A stretch of 64,000 nucleotides of DNA, taken from Haloferax marisrubri (GTDB taxonomy: Archaea; Halobacteriota; Halobacteria; Halobacteriales; Haloferacaceae). The DNA is taken from contig NZ_LOPW02000006.1 of assembly GCF_001469875.2 (NCBI RefSeq), positions 168,593-232,592 of the forward strand. Reading direction: 5' to 3'. Below the pieces are notes generated by a model, which was given only the letters and a program-made list of their open reading frames with translations, was not told the origin of the DNA and did no database searches. Shown here one piece after another: positions 11,220 to 54,899 of the stretch (position 1 is its first letter; each line of letters opens with the position of its first letter). The position numbers were made by a program, and so were the translations under genes.

Positions 11220-11254
11220 TTGGGAAGACAGCGCGGTTCGAGGTGGGGTCGGCC

Positions 11255-12028
11255 TCACTCCGGGCCGTCGGTAGTGGGACCGTCGGCATCTTCAGCGTCA
11301 GGTTCGGGGTCGAGCGGCCGTCGGACCACGAGAACCGGGGCGACCGTCTGTTCGGCGACGCGGTCGGACGTCTCGCCGAACAGTCGGCCGCGGAGCGTGG
11401 GTTTCTCCTCTCCCATCACGACCACGTCGTGGTCCTTCGCGCCCTCGATGAGCGCCTGAAGCGGGTTCTGGGCGACGACGACGACGCGCGAGATGTGCTC
11501 GCGGCTGACCCCGAGGACGGCCAGTTCGTTGGCGACCTCGCTGAGCAGGGCTTCGCCGTCCGAGACCGCGTCGTCGTCCTCGACGGCGTGGAACAGCGTG
11601 AGTTCGATGTCCTCGTGTCTCCCGACGGCCGCGGCGACCTTGGTAATCGTCTCGAGGTTGATGTCCTCTTTTATCGGGACGATGATGCGGTCGATGGTCG
11701 GGGCGGGGTTCGAGAGCAACACCGCATCGCAGTCGGCTTCCGTGGCGATGCGCTCCGTCGTCTGGTCGGTGTCGTGGGTGAACACCAGCCGCGTCTCGAC
11801 GGTCGCGCCGGCGGCTTCGAACACCGAGACGAGTTCGGCGAGTTCCTCGCGTGCCTTCGGTTCGAACTGCTCTCTGGCCTGCTCGGGGGCCGTCTGCTCG
11901 GGTATCTCGTGGTACGCGAGGAGGACGACCGTCGTCCCCGAGAGGACGCGTATCAGTTGGTCCGGAATCACCTGTCCCGCCAGCACCGCGACGGGAACGA
12001 GCACGCGAACGTCGTCGGGGTCACGCAT
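11255..12028 (-). CDS. tandem universal stress protein (UspA) associated with APC permease
   Basis: A 257-residue protein with two UspA-like halves. The first (about 8-125) starts [10 protein letters not shown] and lacks a clear nucleotide-binding loop. The second (about 128-240) begins [16 protein letters not shown] and contains the region [21 protein letters not shown], resembling the Usp G-x2-G-x9-G segment. An acidic tail follows. Its start overlaps the end of the amino-acid permease gene by eight bases, so both are made from one transcript. Usp domains paired with APC transporters are common in haloarchaea and are thought to be regulatory (inference). Confidence 0.85.
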
Positions 12029-42793: not shown

Positions 42794-44092
42794 ATGTCCA
42801 AACGCGCGAACGCCCGGGAATCGGTACTCGTTCCATCGGGCAACTACACCTGCGTCCGGTCGCTCGGCGAGCGGGGTGTCCACACGGTCATGGCCTCCGA
42901 ACACGACGACACGCCGGCGGCCTCGTCCCGATTCTGCGACGAACTCGTCCGCATTCCCGCCCCGAAAGACGACCTCGTCGCCTACAAGGACGCCCTCGTC
43001 GGCATCGCCGCCCGCCCGGACGTGAAGACCATCATCCCGACGCGGCCGGAAGACGGCTACATCTTCTCGAAGTACCTCGACGAGTTCGAGCAGTACGTCG
43101 ACCTCGTGGTCCCCGACTTCGAGACGCTCCGCCGGGTCCACGACCGAAAGCTCCTCTACGAGGCCGCCGTCGAGGCCGGCGTCCCCATGCCGCGGACCCG
43201 CCTGTTCAGCGAGGTCGAGGCGTTCGACGAGCCCTCGATTATCAAGCCGCGGTACAACGTCGTCGCCGGCGAGTACGTCGACAGCTACGACCCCCACGAG
43301 TACGACATCGTCAAGAGCGTCCGCCACGTCCGCCCCGGCGACCGGCCGAACGCCGACGAGATATACGCCGAGATGAAACACGACCCCATCGTACAGGACT
43401 ACGTCCCGACCCAGGACAAGTACATGTTCGCGGCGCTGTACGACCACGGCGAACCCCTCGCGACGTTCCAGCACCTCCAGATTCGCGGGAACTCCTACAC
43501 CGGCGGCGGCGGCGTCTACCGGACCTCGGTGTACGACCCCGAACTCGAATCCGTCGCGCGGAAGCTCCTCGGCCACATCGACTGGCACGGCCTCGCGTGC
43601 ATCGAGTACCTCAAGGACGCCGAGACGGGCGAGTTCAAACTCATCGAAATCAACCCCCGGATGTGGCAGTCGCTCCCCTCGACCGTCCGCGCCGGGGCCG
43701 ACTTCCCGTACTACTACTGGCTGCAGGCGACCGGGCAGAAACACCGCATCGAACCGGGCTACGAACTCGGCGTCGGCACCCACTACCTCTGGGGCGAACT
43801 CGGCTACGTGATGAGCGTCCGCCGCGACGACTCGCCGCTCGTCGAGCGCCCGTCGTTCGTCAAGACCGTCTGGGAGGTCGCCGCCTCAATCTACCGCGAG
43901 CCGAGATTCGACCTCGCGCGCCTCGACGACCCGGTTCCCTTCGCTCGCTACGTGCACCACGCGCTGTTCAACCGCGGGGACGACGACGGCGAGGCGGAAT
44001 CGACCGCCGACCGCGACGGTGACGGAGACGAACCGGAAGAGCCGAGAACCGGTATCACGCTGACGCCGGGACTCAACTTCAGGGGTCGCTGA
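42794..44092 (+). CDS. ATP-grasp domain protein (carboxylate-amine/thiol ligase type)
   Basis: A 432-residue ATP-grasp enzyme. The pre-ATP-grasp domain (about 10-115) contains VLVPSGNYTCVRSLGERG. The ATP-grasp fold (about 115-310) contains the lysine segment SIIKPRYNVVAGE, a mobile loop RGNSYTGGGGVYRTS, and the metal-binding FKLIEINPRMWQS. Members of this group ligate a carboxylate to an amine using ATP; the substrate is unknown. The tail (about 390-432) is acidic and disordered. It is the last GC-rich gene before the AT-rich OLD-like island. Confidence 0.85.
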   Translation: MSKRANARESVLVPSGNYTCVRSLGERGVHTVMASEHDDTPAASSRFCDELVRIPAPKDDLVAYKDALVGIAARPDVKTIIPTRPEDGYIFSKYLDEFEQYVDLVVPDFETLRRVHDRKLLYEAAVEAGVPMPRTRLFSEVEAFDEPSIIKPRYNVVAGEYVDSYDPHEYDIVKSVRHVRPGDRPNADEIYAEMKHDPIVQDYVPTQDKYMFAALYDHGEPLATFQHLQIRGNSYTGGGGVYRTSVYDPELESVARKLLGHIDWHGLACIEYLKDAETGEFKLIEINPRMWQSLPSTVRAGADFPYYYWLQATGQKHRIEPGYELGVGTHYLWGELGYVMSVRRDDSPLVERPSFVKTVWEVAASIYREPRFDLARLDDPVPFARYVHHALFNRGDDDGEAESTADRDGDGDEPEEPRTGITLTPGLNFRGR

Positions 44093-44178
44093 GTCGGCCG
44101 ACCGTCGTGGCGGCACTACTCGTTGTGGGGCTGTTTAAATTTGTAGATTGGGCAATTGTACTGAAGTTCCTAATTCAA

Positions 44179-46101
44179 TCAATTATCGATATTAGAATTG
44201 TCAATAAAATTATCAGTAGCCCAGTCATCTATTCCACAGAGAACCACCTCTCTTTTCGGAGCAACAATATTCTGCCCTTCTGATGCCATCTTAACCAATC
44301 TCTGCGCCACGTTTACTTTGGATGGTGCATCAACTCCTTCACTCTGACACCAGTCTTCTACAACCTGAACACGATTGTTTTCGGCGAACTCGTCTGTGTT
44401 CAGTTCAGCGTTTGGGTTCTGCCACTCATTCAGTTCGTTATTGACGGCTTCAACGTATGCTTCCAAGTCTACCAGATCTTCCAGCACAAGCAGTTCATCG
44501 GAGAAATCACGATAGGTTTTAATCTTCTGTGAGCTTGCACCAGCATTCACAAGATCGTCCCTATTTTCGTGACCACCATTATCGCCATCAAGCAATATTA
44601 CAGATCTACCTGTCTCTGAAAGCAACTCTGAGATTTTCTTCTCTCCGACGTTTGCCGCACCAGGGGCAATTTGATACTCCAACTCTGATTTACCAGTCGC
44701 TTGACGGATGAGTGTTGGTAGTAAAATAGTCTCACAGGGACCTTCAGCAATTAACGAGTTTCGAGCAACTGTGAACGCTAACGGATTCAGACCCATTGCT
44801 ATCATGATAGGCTTGAAACCAGGTTCATCAACCCAAAATCCATTCTTGATGTTACTTCGCTCACCCTTCTTTTGTACGACAGGGCGAATCCCTCTACCAA
44901 GGTCTGATGGAAGACAGCCCGCAGAGTGAGTGGTGTAAATTACTTTCTGTGCAATAGTCTGCGTCTCAAGTACTTCGACCAACTCAGCCTGAGCATCATA
45001 ACTCAGATGTCTTTCCGCCTCATCAACCAACAACACAGGCTTCTCACCAGCATCGTTCTGGTTCAAAAAGGCAACCAACGCCACGAACCAACGAAGCCCA
45101 TCACTTCGCTGGTGAATCGGAGATCGGTTTTGTTCGTCCGGTGTTCGAACATTTATATGTAGAACAGTCCCATCAATATCAAGAACTGGAACAACATCTG
45201 TTCGGACCCAAGACTTAGAGAATGCTCTTTCCAATTCTTTGCTGGCTTCCTCCGTCAGATCATTTGCTAAATGTACTGTGCCGGACTCAGCCGCTTCCTT
45301 GAGTTCTTGAAGATCCAAACTAGCTAATTCCGCTAAATTCGATAGCGCACTCGGCGCGTTGGGAACTGTATTACTCAGGTCGTATGTCGATTTTAAATTC
45401 CGATCACGTTCACTAAAGGAAAGAAACATTGGGCGTCTCTGTAGCAAAATTTTCCTTGCTTTCTCTGGCGGCGAATTCCTCTCATGCTTCGCTAACTCCT
45501 CAAACGACTCAATTATCTGCTTGACCAAGTCAGTATCATACTTTTCAGAATCCAAGTTCTCTAAAATCCCAGCCAGTTTATTAGAACATTCTTGGAGAAG
45601 GTTTATTGTTTGATCTCCAAGATAATCATCGTTAGAATCTAGCTTCCCAGACAATTCCTTCAGGTTAGAAGAAACTCGACTATTTGTTTTCCGACCAAAA
45701 ACTGTCGACTGGAAGAACATCTCAAGTTCAGATTTCACTTCTTTCCGAGGCTGAAGATTGTGATTTAATTCGGGCTGGACTCTGGCATTTACGGAGCCAT
45801 TTTCGAGTTTCGTGAAAGTGCATTTTTTAATTTCTTCGGAATTCTCAACGGGTTTTAGATCTCTGTAGTCCTCATCTTCGAGGCTAAATGTGGCATCTAT
45901 TTTCGTCGTGATATCTACCCTACGGGTCTGATTTTGAGCCTCAATCTCGTCCTCGCTATTCAATTCTTCCAGAGCGTCCAGAAACGACGTTTTCCCGGAT
46001 TCATTCTGCCCGATCAATGCAATCAAATTTTCCAGCAGACGGACACTAGTCGGATCTTTAAACCGACGAAAACCCTGGACATTGACCCCAATCAATTCCA
46101 T
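44179..46101 (-). CDS. OLD-family ATP-dependent nuclease (ABC ATPase plus TOPRIM), horizontally acquired
   Basis: A 640-residue class 1 OLD-like protein. ATPase motifs: Walker A GQNESGKTS (31-39), signature-like RSDGLRWF (332-339), Walker B PVLLVDEAE (355-363) and H-loop TTHS (390-393). TOPRIM follows, with E453 in IAEGPCE and D505/D507 in LLDGDNGG. Related proteins (P2 Old, GajA) act as nucleases in phage defence. No UvrD-type GajB helicase is adjacent, so it is a lone OLD rather than Gabija. Base composition is strikingly AT-rich and codon use differs from all neighbours, indicating recent transfer. ATTTATT (46127-46133) is its TATA-like box. Confidence 0.88.
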   Translation of the reverse strand: MELIGVNVQGFRRFKDPTSVRLLENLIALIGQNESGKTSFLDALEELNSEDEIEAQNQTRRVDITTKIDATFSLEDEDYRDLKPVENSEEIKKCTFTKLENGSVNARVQPELNHNLQPRKEVKSELEMFFQSTVFGRKTNSRVSSNLKELSGKLDSNDDYLGDQTINLLQECSNKLAGILENLDSEKYDTDLVKQIIESFEELAKHERNSPPEKARKILLQRRPMFLSFSERDRNLKSTYDLSNTVPNAPSALSNLAELASLDLQELKEAAESGTVHLANDLTEEASKELERAFSKSWVRTDVVPVLDIDGTVLHINVRTPDEQNRSPIHQRSDGLRWFVALVAFLNQNDAGEKPVLLVDEAERHLSYDAQAELVEVLETQTIAQKVIYTTHSAGCLPSDLGRGIRPVVQKKGERSNIKNGFWVDEPGFKPIMIAMGLNPLAFTVARNSLIAEGPCETILLPTLIRQATGKSELEYQIAPGAANVGEKKISELLSETGRSVILLDGDNGGHENRDDLVNAGASSQKIKTYRDFSDELLVLEDLVDLEAYVEAVNNELNEWQNPNAELNTDEFAENNRVQVVEDWCQSEGVDAPSKVNVAQRLVKMASEGQNIVAPKREVVLCGIDDWATDNFIDNSNIDN

Positions 46102-46126
46102 ATAACTCAGTTGCCAACCAGAAGCG

Positions 46127-46133
46127 AATAAAT
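46127..46133 (-). promoter_or_regulatory. TATA-like box of the OLD-like gene
   Basis: ATTTATT on the minus strand is centred about 29 bp before the ATG at 46101, predicting a leaderless transcript driven from the gene's own AT-rich promoter. Confidence 0.55.
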
Positions 46134-46151
46134 CTGGTCTAGTGGCAATTC

Positions 46152-46260
46152 GTTAAAACGAACTATTTCGTCTAAACCCAATAAGCCGAATCAAGAATCA
46201 GCTATCAGTACACACGCATTATCTGCGCAGTCACAACAAACTGTCAAAACGAATTATTCC
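46152..46260. repeat. 18-bp imperfect direct repeats beside the OLD-like gene
   Basis: GTTAAAACGAACTATTTC (46152-46169) and GTCAAAACGAATTATTCC (46243-46260) match at 15 of 18 positions, 73 bp apart, in the AT-rich flank upstream of the OLD-like gene. They could be regulator sites, or traces of the event that inserted the gene. Confidence 0.5.
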
Positions 46261-46315
46261 AACAGGCGTCACCGCATCTCTGTTCCACCCGTGCCAGCAC
46301 AGCGTTTGTGTACGC

Positions 46316-47746
46316 TCACTCGTCGCGGAACGCGCAGGTCGCGGTGTAGGACACGTCGTCGAGCACGAGTTCGACGCCGCGGGTCCGGGTCGGCGGGCCG
46401 CTGACGTTGATGCTGGAGTTCTGGATAGCACAGTCCGACGCGCGGTTGACGAGCACGCCGCCGACCCGGCCGTTCGGCAGGTAGATACAGCTATCGACGA
46501 TACGGGAGCCGTTTCGGTTCTCGTCGACGACGACCGCCGAGCCGTAGGGCTGGCTCTCGCACGACCCCGAGATAGTGACGTTTTCGAGGACCATCCCCCA
46601 CGGTTCCCGCGCGATGTCGGTGTCGACCGGTCCCGCGTAGATGGTCTGGACGCCGGTGTCGTTGACGATGCGGCAGTTGCGCAGAGTGAAGCCGCCGTGG
46701 CTCCCGTAGGTCGGGACAGTAATGATGCCCGGCGAGGACGGACTGGACCGGAAGATGAAGTCGCAGTCCTCGACGAGAACGCCCGTGTAGCCGTGGCCCG
46801 TCGAGTCGATGCGGAGCCCTTCGGGGCTGTCGAGTCTGTCCCCCTCGCGGGCGTGTTCGTTGAGATTGTCGGCGTCGACGATGACGGTCGCGCCCTTGAT
46901 CCACGAGGTCTTGGTCGGATGGTCGCCCGCGGAGATGCGCATGTTGGTGTTGTCGTTGTTCTTGAACAGCCCGCCCTCGACGCGGAGGACGCCGCGGGTG
47001 TGGGTCGCGCGGAACGACGACGACCCGCGCTGTTCGATGTGGCAGTCTATCATCCTGACCTCGCCGACCGACCGCTCGGTGATGCGAATCCCGGCGACGC
47101 CGTTCGGATAGCCGGGAAGCGCCGCACCCTCGCGCATGTAGACGCGGCGGATGACGTTGACGCCCTCGACCGAGGTGCAGTCGAAGAGGAGCAGTTGGTC
47201 GCGCGCGTGGCTGTCGGTGGGGGTGCGGCCGAGCCACTCGACGTCCTCGATGAGCGCGCCGTCGTCGTTGGCGAGCCAGACATCGGCGCTCGTGGTGTCG
47301 TCGTCGGTCTGCTGGATGGAGAAGTTCTTCAGGACGTGGTCCGTCCCGCTCGTGATGCGGAGCATCCGGAACTGCTCGCCGGGGTCAGCCGGCGGGAAGA
47401 CGAACTGCACGTCCTTGTGGGAGTCGCCGAGGCCGACGAGTTGGAAGTTCGAGACGCCGCGGTCCCAGTCGTGTTCGCGGGTGATGAGGTAGTCGCCCGG
47501 CGGGAACTCGATGGCCGTGTCGTCGCCGTACGTCTCGTCGAGAATGTCGTCGACCGGCTCTTGACCCGTCGGGTCCATCCCGAGGTCCTCGACCGCGTTG
47601 AGGGCGGTGACGTCGGGTTCGGGCGTGGGCGTCTCCTCGGTCGTCGGCGTCTCGGTCGGCGTCTCCTCGTCCGGCGTGTTACAGCCGGCGAGCGCGGCAC
47701 CGACGCCGACCGCGCCGAGCGTCTTCAGGTAGGTTCTGCGCTTCAC
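46316..47746 (-). CDS. Tat lipoprotein with right-handed beta-helix (pectate-lyase-like), paralog of the gene at 52140
   Basis: A 476-residue exported protein. The GTG start at 47746 gives a Tat signal (VKRRTYLKTLG) and lipobox ALAGC (Cys22), then a Thr/Pro/Glu linker and a right-handed parallel beta-helix (about 70-470). The start is supported by GGAGGT eight bases upstream and by overlap with the stop of a 43-codon ORF. Residues around CHIEQRGSSSFRATHTRG are identical to the 919-residue paralog. No clear catalytic residues can be assigned. Probably binds or cleaves polysaccharide at the cell surface as part of the adjacent glycan locus. Confidence 0.85.
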   Translation of the reverse strand: MKRRTYLKTLGAVGVGAALAGCNTPDEETPTETPTTEETPTPEPDVTALNAVEDLGMDPTGQEPVDDILDETYGDDTAIEFPPGDYLITREHDWDRGVSNFQLVGLGDSHKDVQFVFPPADPGEQFRMLRITSGTDHVLKNFSIQQTDDDTTSADVWLANDDGALIEDVEWLGRTPTDSHARDQLLLFDCTSVEGVNVIRRVYMREGAALPGYPNGVAGIRITERSVGEVRMIDCHIEQRGSSSFRATHTRGVLRVEGGLFKNNDNTNMRISAGDHPTKTSWIKGATVIVDADNLNEHAREGDRLDSPEGLRIDSTGHGYTGVLVEDCDFIFRSSPSSPGIITVPTYGSHGGFTLRNCRIVNDTGVQTIYAGPVDTDIAREPWGMVLENVTISGSCESQPYGSAVVVDENRNGSRIVDSCIYLPNGRVGGVLVNRASDCAIQNSSINVSGPPTRTRGVELVLDDVSYTATCAFRDE

Positions 47747-47874
47747 CGGCGGGGGACCTCCGTGCGCTCGGGGCGTCCCCGGTGACTGTCCAGCGTCCGT
47801 CGAGCGTCGGCGTCGAGTCGCCTCGGAGGGCGAGATGAAAGCGGGAGAGAGAGGGACCAACGTCGGTTGAACAT
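47743..47874 (-). CDS. 43-codon ORF overlapping the beta-helix lipoprotein start (GTGA)
   Basis: An Arg-rich ORF (starts MFNRRWSLSL, ends ERTEVPRR) whose TGA overlaps the GTG at 47746. The GGAGGT ribosome-binding site of the lipoprotein lies inside its 3' end. It is probably a coupling leader or a chance ORF rather than a structural protein gene. It accounts for about 130 bp of the 354-bp gap to the divergent deacetylase-like gene. Confidence 0.35.
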   Translation of the reverse strand: MFNRRWSLSLPLSSRPPRRLDADARRTLDSHRGRPERTEVPRR

Positions 47875-48070
47875 GTATCCCGTCAGTTGGGCGGGAAAGG
47901 TGATTGGTAAACGGTGTGTAACCGCCGGTGGCGGCGCGAGCGGCGTGGAGTTCGGACGGGTCGGCGGCGACGGAACCGAGAGGGGGCCGAGGCGAAACGA
48001 CGGGACGAGAGGTGGAGAACAAACGTCTCCGAGGCCGTCAGTCCGAGGCTACGGAAATTACGAGTCGCAT

Positions 48071-52139: not shown

Positions 52140-54899
52140 TCAGCCGTCGTTGTCTTCGAACGTCAGCGCCGCGTCGCCGGTCAGGTTCATCTTCCTGATG
52201 TCACCCGAGAACCGGAAGGCGTCGACGTTGTCCGTGACGGAGCCCTTCACCTTGCCGTTGGTGACGCTGTCGTCGCTCTCGATCGGCCCGACGAGCGGGT
52301 CGTTCAGGATGTCGCCCGAGACCATGAACTCGTACGTCGTCTCCGTGCCGTCGCCATCGACGACGAGGGTGTTCGGCAGGGAGAACACGGCGGGGTCGAC
52401 CCGCGTGCCGTTGACGTAGACCTCGGCCTCGCCCTGGAGGAACGACAGCGACGTAATCGTACCCGTGAAGGTGTACGTGTCGTCGACGCCGTCGGTGGTC
52501 ACCCAGCCCGTCGCGGAGCTTTCGGACACGTCGTCCCACTCTTCGACGGTGTCGCCCGAGGCTTCGAGCGTGCCGCTGACGGTGACTTCGTACTGCGTCT
52601 CGACGCCGGTGCCGACGAGGCGCAGTTCGTTCTGGCTGTCGGTGGAGTCGGTCGTGGAGTCGTCCGTCGAATCCGTCGAGTCGTCCGTGCTCGAATCGGT
52701 GGAGCCGTCGGTCGACGAGTCCGTCGTCGCGTCCGTGACCGTGCTCTCGGTCACCTGCTCGCCGTCGACGTAAATCTCGGCCTCGCCCTCGACGAAACTG
52801 AAGGAGGTGACGCTCCCCGCGAAGTTGAACGTGTCCTCGACGCCCGCGGTCGTAATCCAGCCGCTGGCGGAGGTGCCGTCGATGGTGTCCCACTGTTCGA
52901 CGGTGTCGCCCGAGGCTTCGAGCGCGTCGCTCACGGTGAACTCGTACTGGGTCTGGGTTCCCGTGCCGACGAGGCGCAGTTCGTGCGAGAGGTCGGTGGA
53001 GTCGGTCGTGGAGTCGTCGGTCGAATCCGTCGAACCGTCCGTGTTCGAATCGGTGGAGTCGTCCGTCGTCGCGTCCGTGACGGTACTCTCCGTCACCTGC
53101 TCGCCGTTGACGTAAATTTCACACTCGCCTTCGAGGAACGAGAACGAGTCGATGTCGCCGGAGAACGTGTAGGCGTCCTCGACGCCCTCGGTCGTAATCC
53201 AGCCGGTCGCGGTGCCGCTGGAGATGTCGTCCCACTCCTCGATGGTGCCGTCCGACGCCTGCAGCGAGTCCGTCACCGTGAACTCGTACTGGGTCGTCGT
53301 GCCCGTGCCGACGAGGCGAATCTCGTTCGGGAGGGGTTCGGTCGTGGAGTCGTCCGTCGTGGAGTCGTCCGTCGTCGAATCCGTCGAGTCGTCCGTCGTC
53401 GACGAGTCGCCGCCGGTGCTTCCGTCGGTGCTCGGGAGCGGACACGAGTCGCTGCTCGTGATGTTGCTCGTGTCCACGTCGGCCCCGCTGAACACCGTCG
53501 CCTGCCCGGAGACGTTGATGTTCGAGTCCAGAATCTCACAGCTCGTGGCGTCGTTGACGAGGACGCCGTCCACGTCGCCGTTCGGGAAGTGGATACAGCT
53601 GTTCTGAACGGTCGAGCCGTTGCGGTCGTTGTCGATGCAGACCGCCGCGCCGGCGGGCTGAGACCGCGTGCTGCCCGTGATAGAGACGTTTTCGAGGTTC
53701 ACGCCCCACGGCTTGTCCGCGGTGTCGGTGTCGACCGAGTCGGCGTGAATCGTCTGGACCGACGTGTCGTTCTGGATGCGGCAGTTGCGCAGAGTGAAGC
53801 CGCCGTGGCCGGCCCACGTCGGCGACGAGACGATGCCGCGCGAGGTGGGACAGGACTTGAAGATGAAGTCACAGTCCTCGATGAGGACGCCCGCGTACCC
53901 GTTGCCGGTGGAGTCGATGCGGAGACCCTCGGGGCTGTCGAGGCTGTCGCCGTCGTGGGCGTGCTCGTTGAGGTTGTCCGCGTCCATGATGACGGTCGCG
54001 CCCTTGATCCACGAGGTCTTGGTCGGATGGTCGCCCGCGGAGATGCGCATGTTAGTGTTGTCGTTGTTCTTGAACAGCCCGCCCTCGACGCGGAGGACGC
54101 CGCGGGTGTGGGTCGCGCGGAACGACGACGACCCGCGCTGTTCGATGTGGCAGTCGACGAGGCGAATCTCGCCGACGGAGCCGCCCTGCACGCGGATACC
54201 CGCGACGCCGTCGGGGTAGCCCGGAAGCTCGGCACCCTCGCGCATGTAGACGCGACGGGCGACGTTGACGCCGTCGACGGAGGAACAGTCGTACGCGAGG
54301 AGCTGGCGGCGAGCGTCGTTGTCGGTGGGGGTGCGACCGAGCCACTCGACGTCCTCGATGAGGCCGCCGTCGTCGTTTATCATCCAGATGTCCGCCGTGG
54401 TTGTGGAGTCGTCGGTCTGCTGGATGGAGAAGTTCTTCAGGACGTGGTGGTCCCCGCTCGTGATTTCGAGGAACCGGTACTTCTCGCCGTTGTTGCCCGA
54501 CGGGAAGACGAACTGCACGTCCTTGTGGGAACTGCCGGTGCCGACCATCCCGAAGCGGGAGACGTCGTCGTTCCAGTACTGCGTCTCGGTGGCGAGATAC
54601 TCACCCGGAGGGAATTCGATGAGCGTCCCGCTTTCGTACGCGGAATCGAGTTGGTTGTCTATCGGTTCGTTTCCGTTGGGGTCCATTCCAAGGTCGTCCA
54701 CCGCGTTGACGACGCGGTCCCATTGGATACCGAAGCGCTCCTCTGGTCCAGACGCAGCCGACGCGACGCCGGCAGAGAGGGCAGTCGATGCGGCCATCGC
54801 ACCGAGTTTGAGGTAATTCCGCCTGTTGAGTTGCGATTCGAGGATGGAGTCCGAATCCGCGGCAGATTCGTCGTCGTCTCCATCGTTTAGTCGTACCAT
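52140..54899 (-). CDS. large exported beta-helix protein with four C-terminal repeats on Ser/Thr/Asp linkers
   Basis: A 919-residue protein. Tat signal (NRRNYLKLGAMAASTALSAGVASA, about 25-48) without a lipobox; right-handed beta-helix (about 75-465) paralogous to the gene at 46316; then low-complexity Asp/Ser/Thr linkers separating four repeats at 526-602, 639-716, 757-834 and 843-917 (the last diverged). Repeats 1-3 share LRLVGTGxxTQYExTV ... TGWxTTxGV and GExExYVxGxxV. These look like carbohydrate-binding or adhesion modules. Linkers are suited to O-glycosylation. A TATA-like ATTATC (54925-54930) lies about 28 bp before the ATG. Confidence 0.85.
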   Translation of the reverse strand: MVRLNDGDDDESAADSDSILESQLNRRNYLKLGAMAASTALSAGVASAASGPEERFGIQWDRVVNAVDDLGMDPNGNEPIDNQLDSAYESGTLIEFPPGEYLATETQYWNDDVSRFGMVGTGSSHKDVQFVFPSGNNGEKYRFLEITSGDHHVLKNFSIQQTDDSTTTADIWMINDDGGLIEDVEWLGRTPTDNDARRQLLAYDCSSVDGVNVARRVYMREGAELPGYPDGVAGIRVQGGSVGEIRLVDCHIEQRGSSSFRATHTRGVLRVEGGLFKNNDNTNMRISAGDHPTKTSWIKGATVIMDADNLNEHAHDGDSLDSPEGLRIDSTGNGYAGVLIEDCDFIFKSCPTSRGIVSSPTWAGHGGFTLRNCRIQNDTSVQTIHADSVDTDTADKPWGVNLENVSITGSTRSQPAGAAVCIDNDRNGSTVQNSCIHFPNGDVDGVLVNDATSCEILDSNINVSGQATVFSGADVDTSNITSSDSCPLPSTDGSTGGDSSTTDDSTDSTTDDSTTDDSTTEPLPNEIRLVGTGTTTQYEFTVTDSLQASDGTIEEWDDISSGTATGWITTEGVEDAYTFSGDIDSFSFLEGECEIYVNGEQVTESTVTDATTDDSTDSNTDGSTDSTDDSTTDSTDLSHELRLVGTGTQTQYEFTVSDALEASGDTVEQWDTIDGTSASGWITTAGVEDTFNFAGSVTSFSFVEGEAEIYVDGEQVTESTVTDATTDSSTDGSTDSSTDDSTDSTDDSTTDSTDSQNELRLVGTGVETQYEVTVSGTLEASGDTVEEWDDVSESSATGWVTTDGVDDTYTFTGTITSLSFLQGEAEVYVNGTRVDPAVFSLPNTLVVDGDGTETTYEFMVSGDILNDPLVGPIESDDSVTNGKVKGSVTDNVDAFRFSGDIRKMNLTGDAALTFEDNDG
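52630..53420 (-). repeat. Asp/Ser/Thr-encoding low-complexity tracts between C-terminal repeats
   Basis: Three tracts (around 52630-52735, 52985-53090 and 53340-53420) consist of short GAC/TCC/ACG-type codon repeats encoding (S/T)TDDSTDS-like sequence. They separate the repeat modules. Such DNA is prone to length changes. Confidence 0.7.

Follow-up and report, generated by a model that had tools for sequence, protein, structure and literature searches.

OLD-family ATPases gate a two-metal TOPRIM nuclease, and several of them function in anti-phage defence; tRNA is the reported target of P2 Old and AriB, and GajA and TsOLD cut DNA (PMC10568477, PMC7049728, PMC13261556, PMC12409363). Few lone OLD genes have been found to have any anti-phage effect (PMC10568477, PMC13261556), and the role of OLD proteins in archaea has been described as unknown, except in the case of Cran1 (PMC12796447). 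Within a 64,000-nucleotide stretch of the Haloferax marisrubri genome (here called the window), we identified a gene on the minus strand (44179..46101) that encodes a 640-residue OLD-family ATPase-TOPRIM protein, an assignment based on the open reading frame, Pfam and PADLOC matches, orthologue alignment, and AlphaFold and Foldseek analysis. The gene stands alone, was acquired recently and occupies a small cassette spot whose content varies.

Like the class 1 OLD proteins (P2 Old, Thermus scotoductus OLD and E. coli YbjD/OldB), the window protein is the product of a single gene and combines an ABC ATPase with a TOPRIM domain, but it has an extra C-terminal helical domain, with a lysine 54 residues after the metal-B glutamate. 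It shares with class 2 OLD/GajA a TOPRIM domain followed by a helical domain bearing the catalytic lysine, the E/D/D/E/K set of residues, and the spacing of 54 found in B. pseudomallei OLD; unlike class 2/Gabija, however, the gene has no adjacent GajB, and a metal-B S/T is not evident (VLED). PARIS (AriA/AriB, class 4) also pairs an ATPase with a TOPRIM nuclease, whereas here the two are fused in one chain, and membership of that class was rejected because no match to AriB (PADLOC) or DUF4435 was found in the C-terminal region. A retron (class 3 OLD) or an RNA component was rejected too, there being no reverse transcriptase gene at the locus and no Rfam match above threshold in 43900-46500. 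Cran1 and the as yet uncharacterised archaeal OLD clades U3/U8/U11 share with the window protein an archaeal origin, the OLD type and a helical element within the nuclease region (PMC12796447), but Cran1 is passed on vertically and is essential in Sulfolobales, whereas the window gene is patchy and foreign; conserved vertical inheritance was not seen in the order (1/15 congeners, 4/392 genomes). Clade U8 is restricted to Halobacteriales (PMC12796447) and may include the clade of the window protein. Lastly, IbfA/HEC-04 (Salmonella plasmid, E. coli), for which abortive phage defence has been demonstrated (PMC12111858), is likewise a single-chain ATPase-TOPRIM protein, a likeness drawn from its description, although IbfA and HEC-04 are bacterial and the window protein is haloarchaeal.

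The sequence-only reading of this DNA had recognized ABC ATPase and TOPRIM motifs with all key residues present, and this was borne out. The N-terminal half is an ABC/SMC-type ATPase region (residues 1-395; 44917..46101, minus strand) with a helical, putative dimerization insert inside it, as delimited by a Pfam AAA_15 match (1e-20), AlphaFold and Foldseek. It carries a Walker A motif (GQNESGKTS, G31-K37), a signature-like RSDG (333-335), a Walker B motif (VLLVDE, 360-361) and an H-loop histidine (H392), as is typical of the OLD family. The alignment, Pfam and a model of the C-terminal region place a TOPRIM core at residues ~449-530 (44512..44757, minus strand), and the model, Foldseek and the spacing of 54 define a C-terminal helical domain at residues ~540-632 (44206..44484, minus strand). 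Between them these two carry the E...E, DxD and metal-B Glu arrangement of the family, in the form of E453/E457, D505-G-D507 and E541/D542, followed by the catalytic lysine K595. All of these ATPase and TOPRIM residues are invariant in the orthologues, which differ by up to 56%. The Pfam OLD-like_TOPRIM match was below threshold (E of 0.11 with the full-length protein and 0.02 with the C-terminus alone), and it recurred in 5/5 clade members tested. PADLOC returned AriA, GajA and Old, the best match to the ATPase half being AriA (4.8e-22). Metal-dependent nuclease activity, as expected of the OLD family, is predicted from these residues.

We then compared structural models of the whole protein and of its C-terminal region with solved structures. 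The whole-protein AlphaFold model (mean pLDDT 83) matched TsOLD (6P74) best in Foldseek, followed by PtuA and SMC proteins and by GajA, and TsOLD was also the best profile match among solved relatives of the whole protein. When the C-terminal region was modelled by itself (mean pLDDT 83.7, pTM 0.83), the first five matches were class-2 OLD C-terminal chains (6NK8, 6NJW, 6NJX, 6NJV), with probabilities of 0.96-1.00, TM ~0.5, modest E-values (0.007 to 0.1) and a consistent ranking, and TsOLD lay outside the first 50. The metal-B glutamate E541 and the catalytic lysine K595 are separated by 54 residues, the same spacing as in B. pseudomallei OLD (E508-K562; PMC6755086); the corresponding spacing in P2 Old is 7, and TsOLD has no C-terminal helical domain and uses an arginine as the catalytic residue (PMC7049728). 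The C-terminal helical domain is, on the model, of the class-2 OLD type. The class 1 assignment made in the sequence-only reading therefore stands as far as gene context is concerned, the gene being alone, with neither a helicase nor a reverse transcriptase, but not for the catalytic region, which lacks the short nuclease region of class 1, with its basic catalytic residue close after the metal-B Glu. As modelled, the protein is class 1 by gene context only and class 2 (GajA-type) in its catalytic region. The combination has some precedent, since a helical element is also known from other archaeal OLD clades (PMC12796447).

The coding sequence is intact and under purifying selection, with a dN/dS of ~0.08 relative to the nearest orthologue, that of Halorubrum, at near-saturated dS. 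Reading of the sequence upstream revealed a candidate promoter region (46127..46162, minus strand) containing a TATA-like TTTATT 26-31 bp before the ATG, at the same distance as in the Halorubrum orthologue, a position that would fit a leaderless haloarchaeal transcript from the gene's own candidate promoter. Just upstream of TTTATT is an inverted repeat, TTCGTTTTAACGAA (46149-46162), which was not seen in the orthologues.

The GC content of the window falls from 0.65-0.70 to 0.41-0.49 across ~44.1-46.3 kb, confirming the abrupt change in composition that had been noted on both sides of the gene. Together with flank alignments to seven congeners, this profile delimits an AT-rich inserted segment, or cassette, at 44113..46312 (no strand assigned), an island of ~2.2 kb with a GC of ~0.44 versus 0.67. 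The OLD gene itself has a GC of 0.441 and a GC3 of 0.417, compared with 0.668 +/- 0.021 and 0.864 +/- 0.075, respectively, for 34 other predicted window genes, and every other 1.9-kb tile of the window has a GC of at least 0.59. The island is filled by the single 640-residue open reading frame and has room for one gene only. On the left, homology to the congeners stops ~20 bp past the stop codon of an ATP-grasp gene (42794..44092, plus strand); on the right, it restarts at the stop codon of a gene for a secreted protein that has no Pfam match and is presumably beta-helical (46316..48022, minus strand). Pfam and the flank alignments show both of these genes to be kept in place in congeners.

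With these two genes as its neighbours, the OLD gene has no adjacent integrase, transposase or helicase gene, as the sequence-only reading had stated; no mobile gene remains within the island, and the OLD gene lies outside any dense defence island. The imperfect 18-bp direct repeats that had been pointed out in the flank proved to be at chance level: no direct or inverted terminal repeat beyond chance was found at the island junctions, where the best 18-mer match between the two zones was 13/18, a score of at least 13 being reached in 27 of 40 shuffles. Site-specific insertion via terminal repeats was rejected for this reason, and a tRNA as the insertion target was rejected because the window has none. 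Separately, a stretch of the secreted-protein gene (46389-47601) has a 79% identical paralogous stretch ~7 kb further on (~53497-54709; G000:C6:222089-223301), which is also present in congeners.

We compared the spot across a genus sample of 15 genomes, including the window genome, and found a close orthologue in one of them and in none of the other 14, one of the congeners having a 28% homologue elsewhere in its genome. This comparison with close strains, which the sequence-only reading had proposed, thus goes against the refuting case, in which all relatives would have the gene with an unchanged composition. In seven congeners both flank genes are syntenic, at 92-96% DNA identity, with other content between them: five have a VapB-like gene and a PIN-toxin gene (PIN, 2e-11), joined in three of the five by a membrane protein gene, and two have a short unrelated ORF and a VapB-like gene that has lost its PIN partner. 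A more distant congener, with flanks ~82% identical, has only 246 bp at the spot. In two congeners, 46-56 bp from the 3' end of the ATP-grasp gene recur between the genes for the membrane protein and the toxin, which suggests modular cassette insertion at the gene end, since recombination in the ATP-grasp end would be expected to leave such a duplication when a cassette is added. The duplicated segments lie at L034 (1540-1595) and L035 (1660-1705) and are equivalent to window positions 44039-44093.

As read from these alignments, the locus is variable and its cargo has been exchanged. In a tree with moderate support, the window genome lies within the group that has a VapB-type cassette at the spot. 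The simplest history is thus that the OLD cassette took the place of a VapBC one, and we infer that a VapBC-type module was probably replaced in this way. The proposal of a single-gene cassette next to a glycan locus accordingly holds for the lone inserted gene, but the spot was one already carrying exchangeable VapBC-type cassettes. The VapC-like toxin gene is single copy; five congeners have it at the OLD spot, and the window genome and a further two congeners have it on other contigs. In the window genome, the VapB/PIN pair (G000:C3:38748-39173; L044:4746-5446) adjoins a 281-residue gene in DNA that is locally AT-rich (GC ~0.5), beside cytochrome-oxidase-like genes.

Beyond the genus, close orthologues are rare: in a sample of 392 genomes from the order, only 4 have one, the window genome included. 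The homology search for lone OLD proteins in haloarchaea that the sequence-only reading had suggested yielded only four other close relatives, of 44-74% identity, in scattered haloarchaea: Halorubrum halophilum B8 (74%; from a search of genome contigs outside the 392-genome count), Halorhabdus salina (60%), genome G379 (~50%) and Halobium salinum (44%). The genome-contig search gave no matches with a single-sequence query and three with an alignment query. The five members form one clade (support 100/100) that is distant from every characterised OLD in the tree, P2 Old included, and its long stem (2.72 changes per site) makes any transfer of function from the characterised proteins weak. The orthologue tree is discordant with the families, Halobium (Haloferacaceae) being outermost and a Haloarculaceae protein being sister to the window and Halorubrum pair. 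Because the protein is acidic (pI 4.67), like other haloarchaeal proteins, and its close relatives are haloarchaeal only, a bacterial donor is unlikely. In the congener G006 (L040:24-11872), a distant OLD homologue is clustered with a McrB_N/AAA_5 protein, an AAA_16 ATPase and an Eco57I-type methylase, and from its gene content this restriction- or defence-like cluster is a candidate multi-gene defence system.

The contexts of the orthologues, to judge from their gene neighbourhoods, are mobile or defence-like. The DNA around the Halorubrum copy is AT-rich, and a type IIG restriction enzyme is encoded 1.7 kb downstream of it; serine resolvases adjoin two of the orthologue copies; and the surroundings of the Halorhabdus copy include a tyrosine integrase, a Cdc6-like gene and a TrwB/HerA-like ATPase. 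Such recombinase-rich surroundings, like the archetype P2 Old (PMC10568477), also favour the view that the gene is a selfish or mobile-element accessory gene of plasmids or proviruses, serving competition between elements and now stranded, with the exclusion of rivals as its only benefit to the host. We consider this unlikely, although it is the strongest of the alternatives, since the island has no mobile gene, the coding sequence is intact and constrained, and viral contigs, phages and PLSDB plasmids gave no close match, only relatives of 20-34%.

The sequence-only reading had also maintained that the gene has no helicase partner, and our searches agree: none was found in the window or called beside the four orthologue loci, and no UvrD/PcrA/Rep-like GajB was found beside the OLD gene or its orthologues. 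One GajA profile (PDLC00091) had no match at 1e-20 in the window genome and none in relatives, and a GajA system elsewhere in the genome was rejected on the zero matches to this one profile. In Halorhabdus salina, a GHKL-type ATPase gene (sub-threshold HATPase_c) ends at the OLD start, making this copy the only clade member with a likely operon partner. The GHKL gene and a 139-residue coiled-coil-like gene (L037:10007-11182 and 11228-11647) are directly upstream of the OLD orthologue, and the three possibly constitute a three-gene system, the GHKL protein having no PADLOC match. The directly abutting GHKL gene in one orthologue means that standing alone may not be the original state of the family. 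Taken further, the same GHKL gene, with the 139-residue gene before it, would favour the view that the window gene is left over from a system of two or three genes (GHKL ATPase plus OLD) and, its partner having been lost, has no activity or only part of it by itself. This is improbable, however, because three of the four clade members tested (the window genome, G379 and Halobium) lack the GHKL gene and the OLD gene is under strong purifying selection, with its catalytic residues intact. That a GHKL partner might be encoded at another locus of the window genome was rejected, as a genome search did not find one. A function in DNA repair or chromosome maintenance, on the pattern of Cran1, an archaeal OLD with a cell-cycle role (PMC12796447), would suit the SMC/Rad50/RecF-like ATPase but is equally hard to credit, given that Cran1 is conserved and vertical, whereas the gene here is patchy (1/15 congeners, 4/392 in the order), has a foreign composition and can be replaced by other cassettes.

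The explanation that we favour, with reasonable if incomplete confidence, is that the cassette, a single gene acquired horizontally, encodes an ATP-regulated nuclease of the OLD family, whose most likely role is antiviral or directed against mobile elements. The patchiness of the gene, the cassette site and the contexts of its orthologues are indirect indications of this probable role in defence. The cassette would have arrived by exchange through recombination in the conserved flanks, probably displacing a VapBC-type module. In the mechanism that we propose, the ABC ATPase head would dimerize, and its nucleotide state, or contact with an infection signal, would keep the TOPRIM-helical nuclease closed; the signal might be loss of nucleotide or the presence of unprotected or virus-modified DNA ends. 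On triggering, the two-metal site (E453/D505/D507 plus E457/E541, with K595) would cut nucleic acid, either DNA, as in TsOLD and GajA, or tRNA, as in P2 Old and AriB, so that the virus would be blocked or the cell shut down. A bolder version, which we put forward only tentatively and regard as rather doubtful, is that the clade is a stand-alone haloarchaeal immune effector combining a class 1 context with a GajA-type nuclease that acts without GajB, and that it swaps with toxin-antitoxin cassettes at a conserved integration spot.

Our best reading is thus of an OLD-type ATP-gated nuclease of a known family, horizontally moving and stand-alone. If the defence role is real, this would be, within the literature cited here, the first archaeal OLD protein with a demonstrated part in defence against viruses. 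Being mobile, lone and haloarchaeal, and having a catalytic end of the GajA type, it would provide a test of whether a GajA-like nuclease acts without a helicase, and the comparison of congeners offers a clean, small, exchangeable cassette site at which more haloarchaeal accessory or defence genes may be found.
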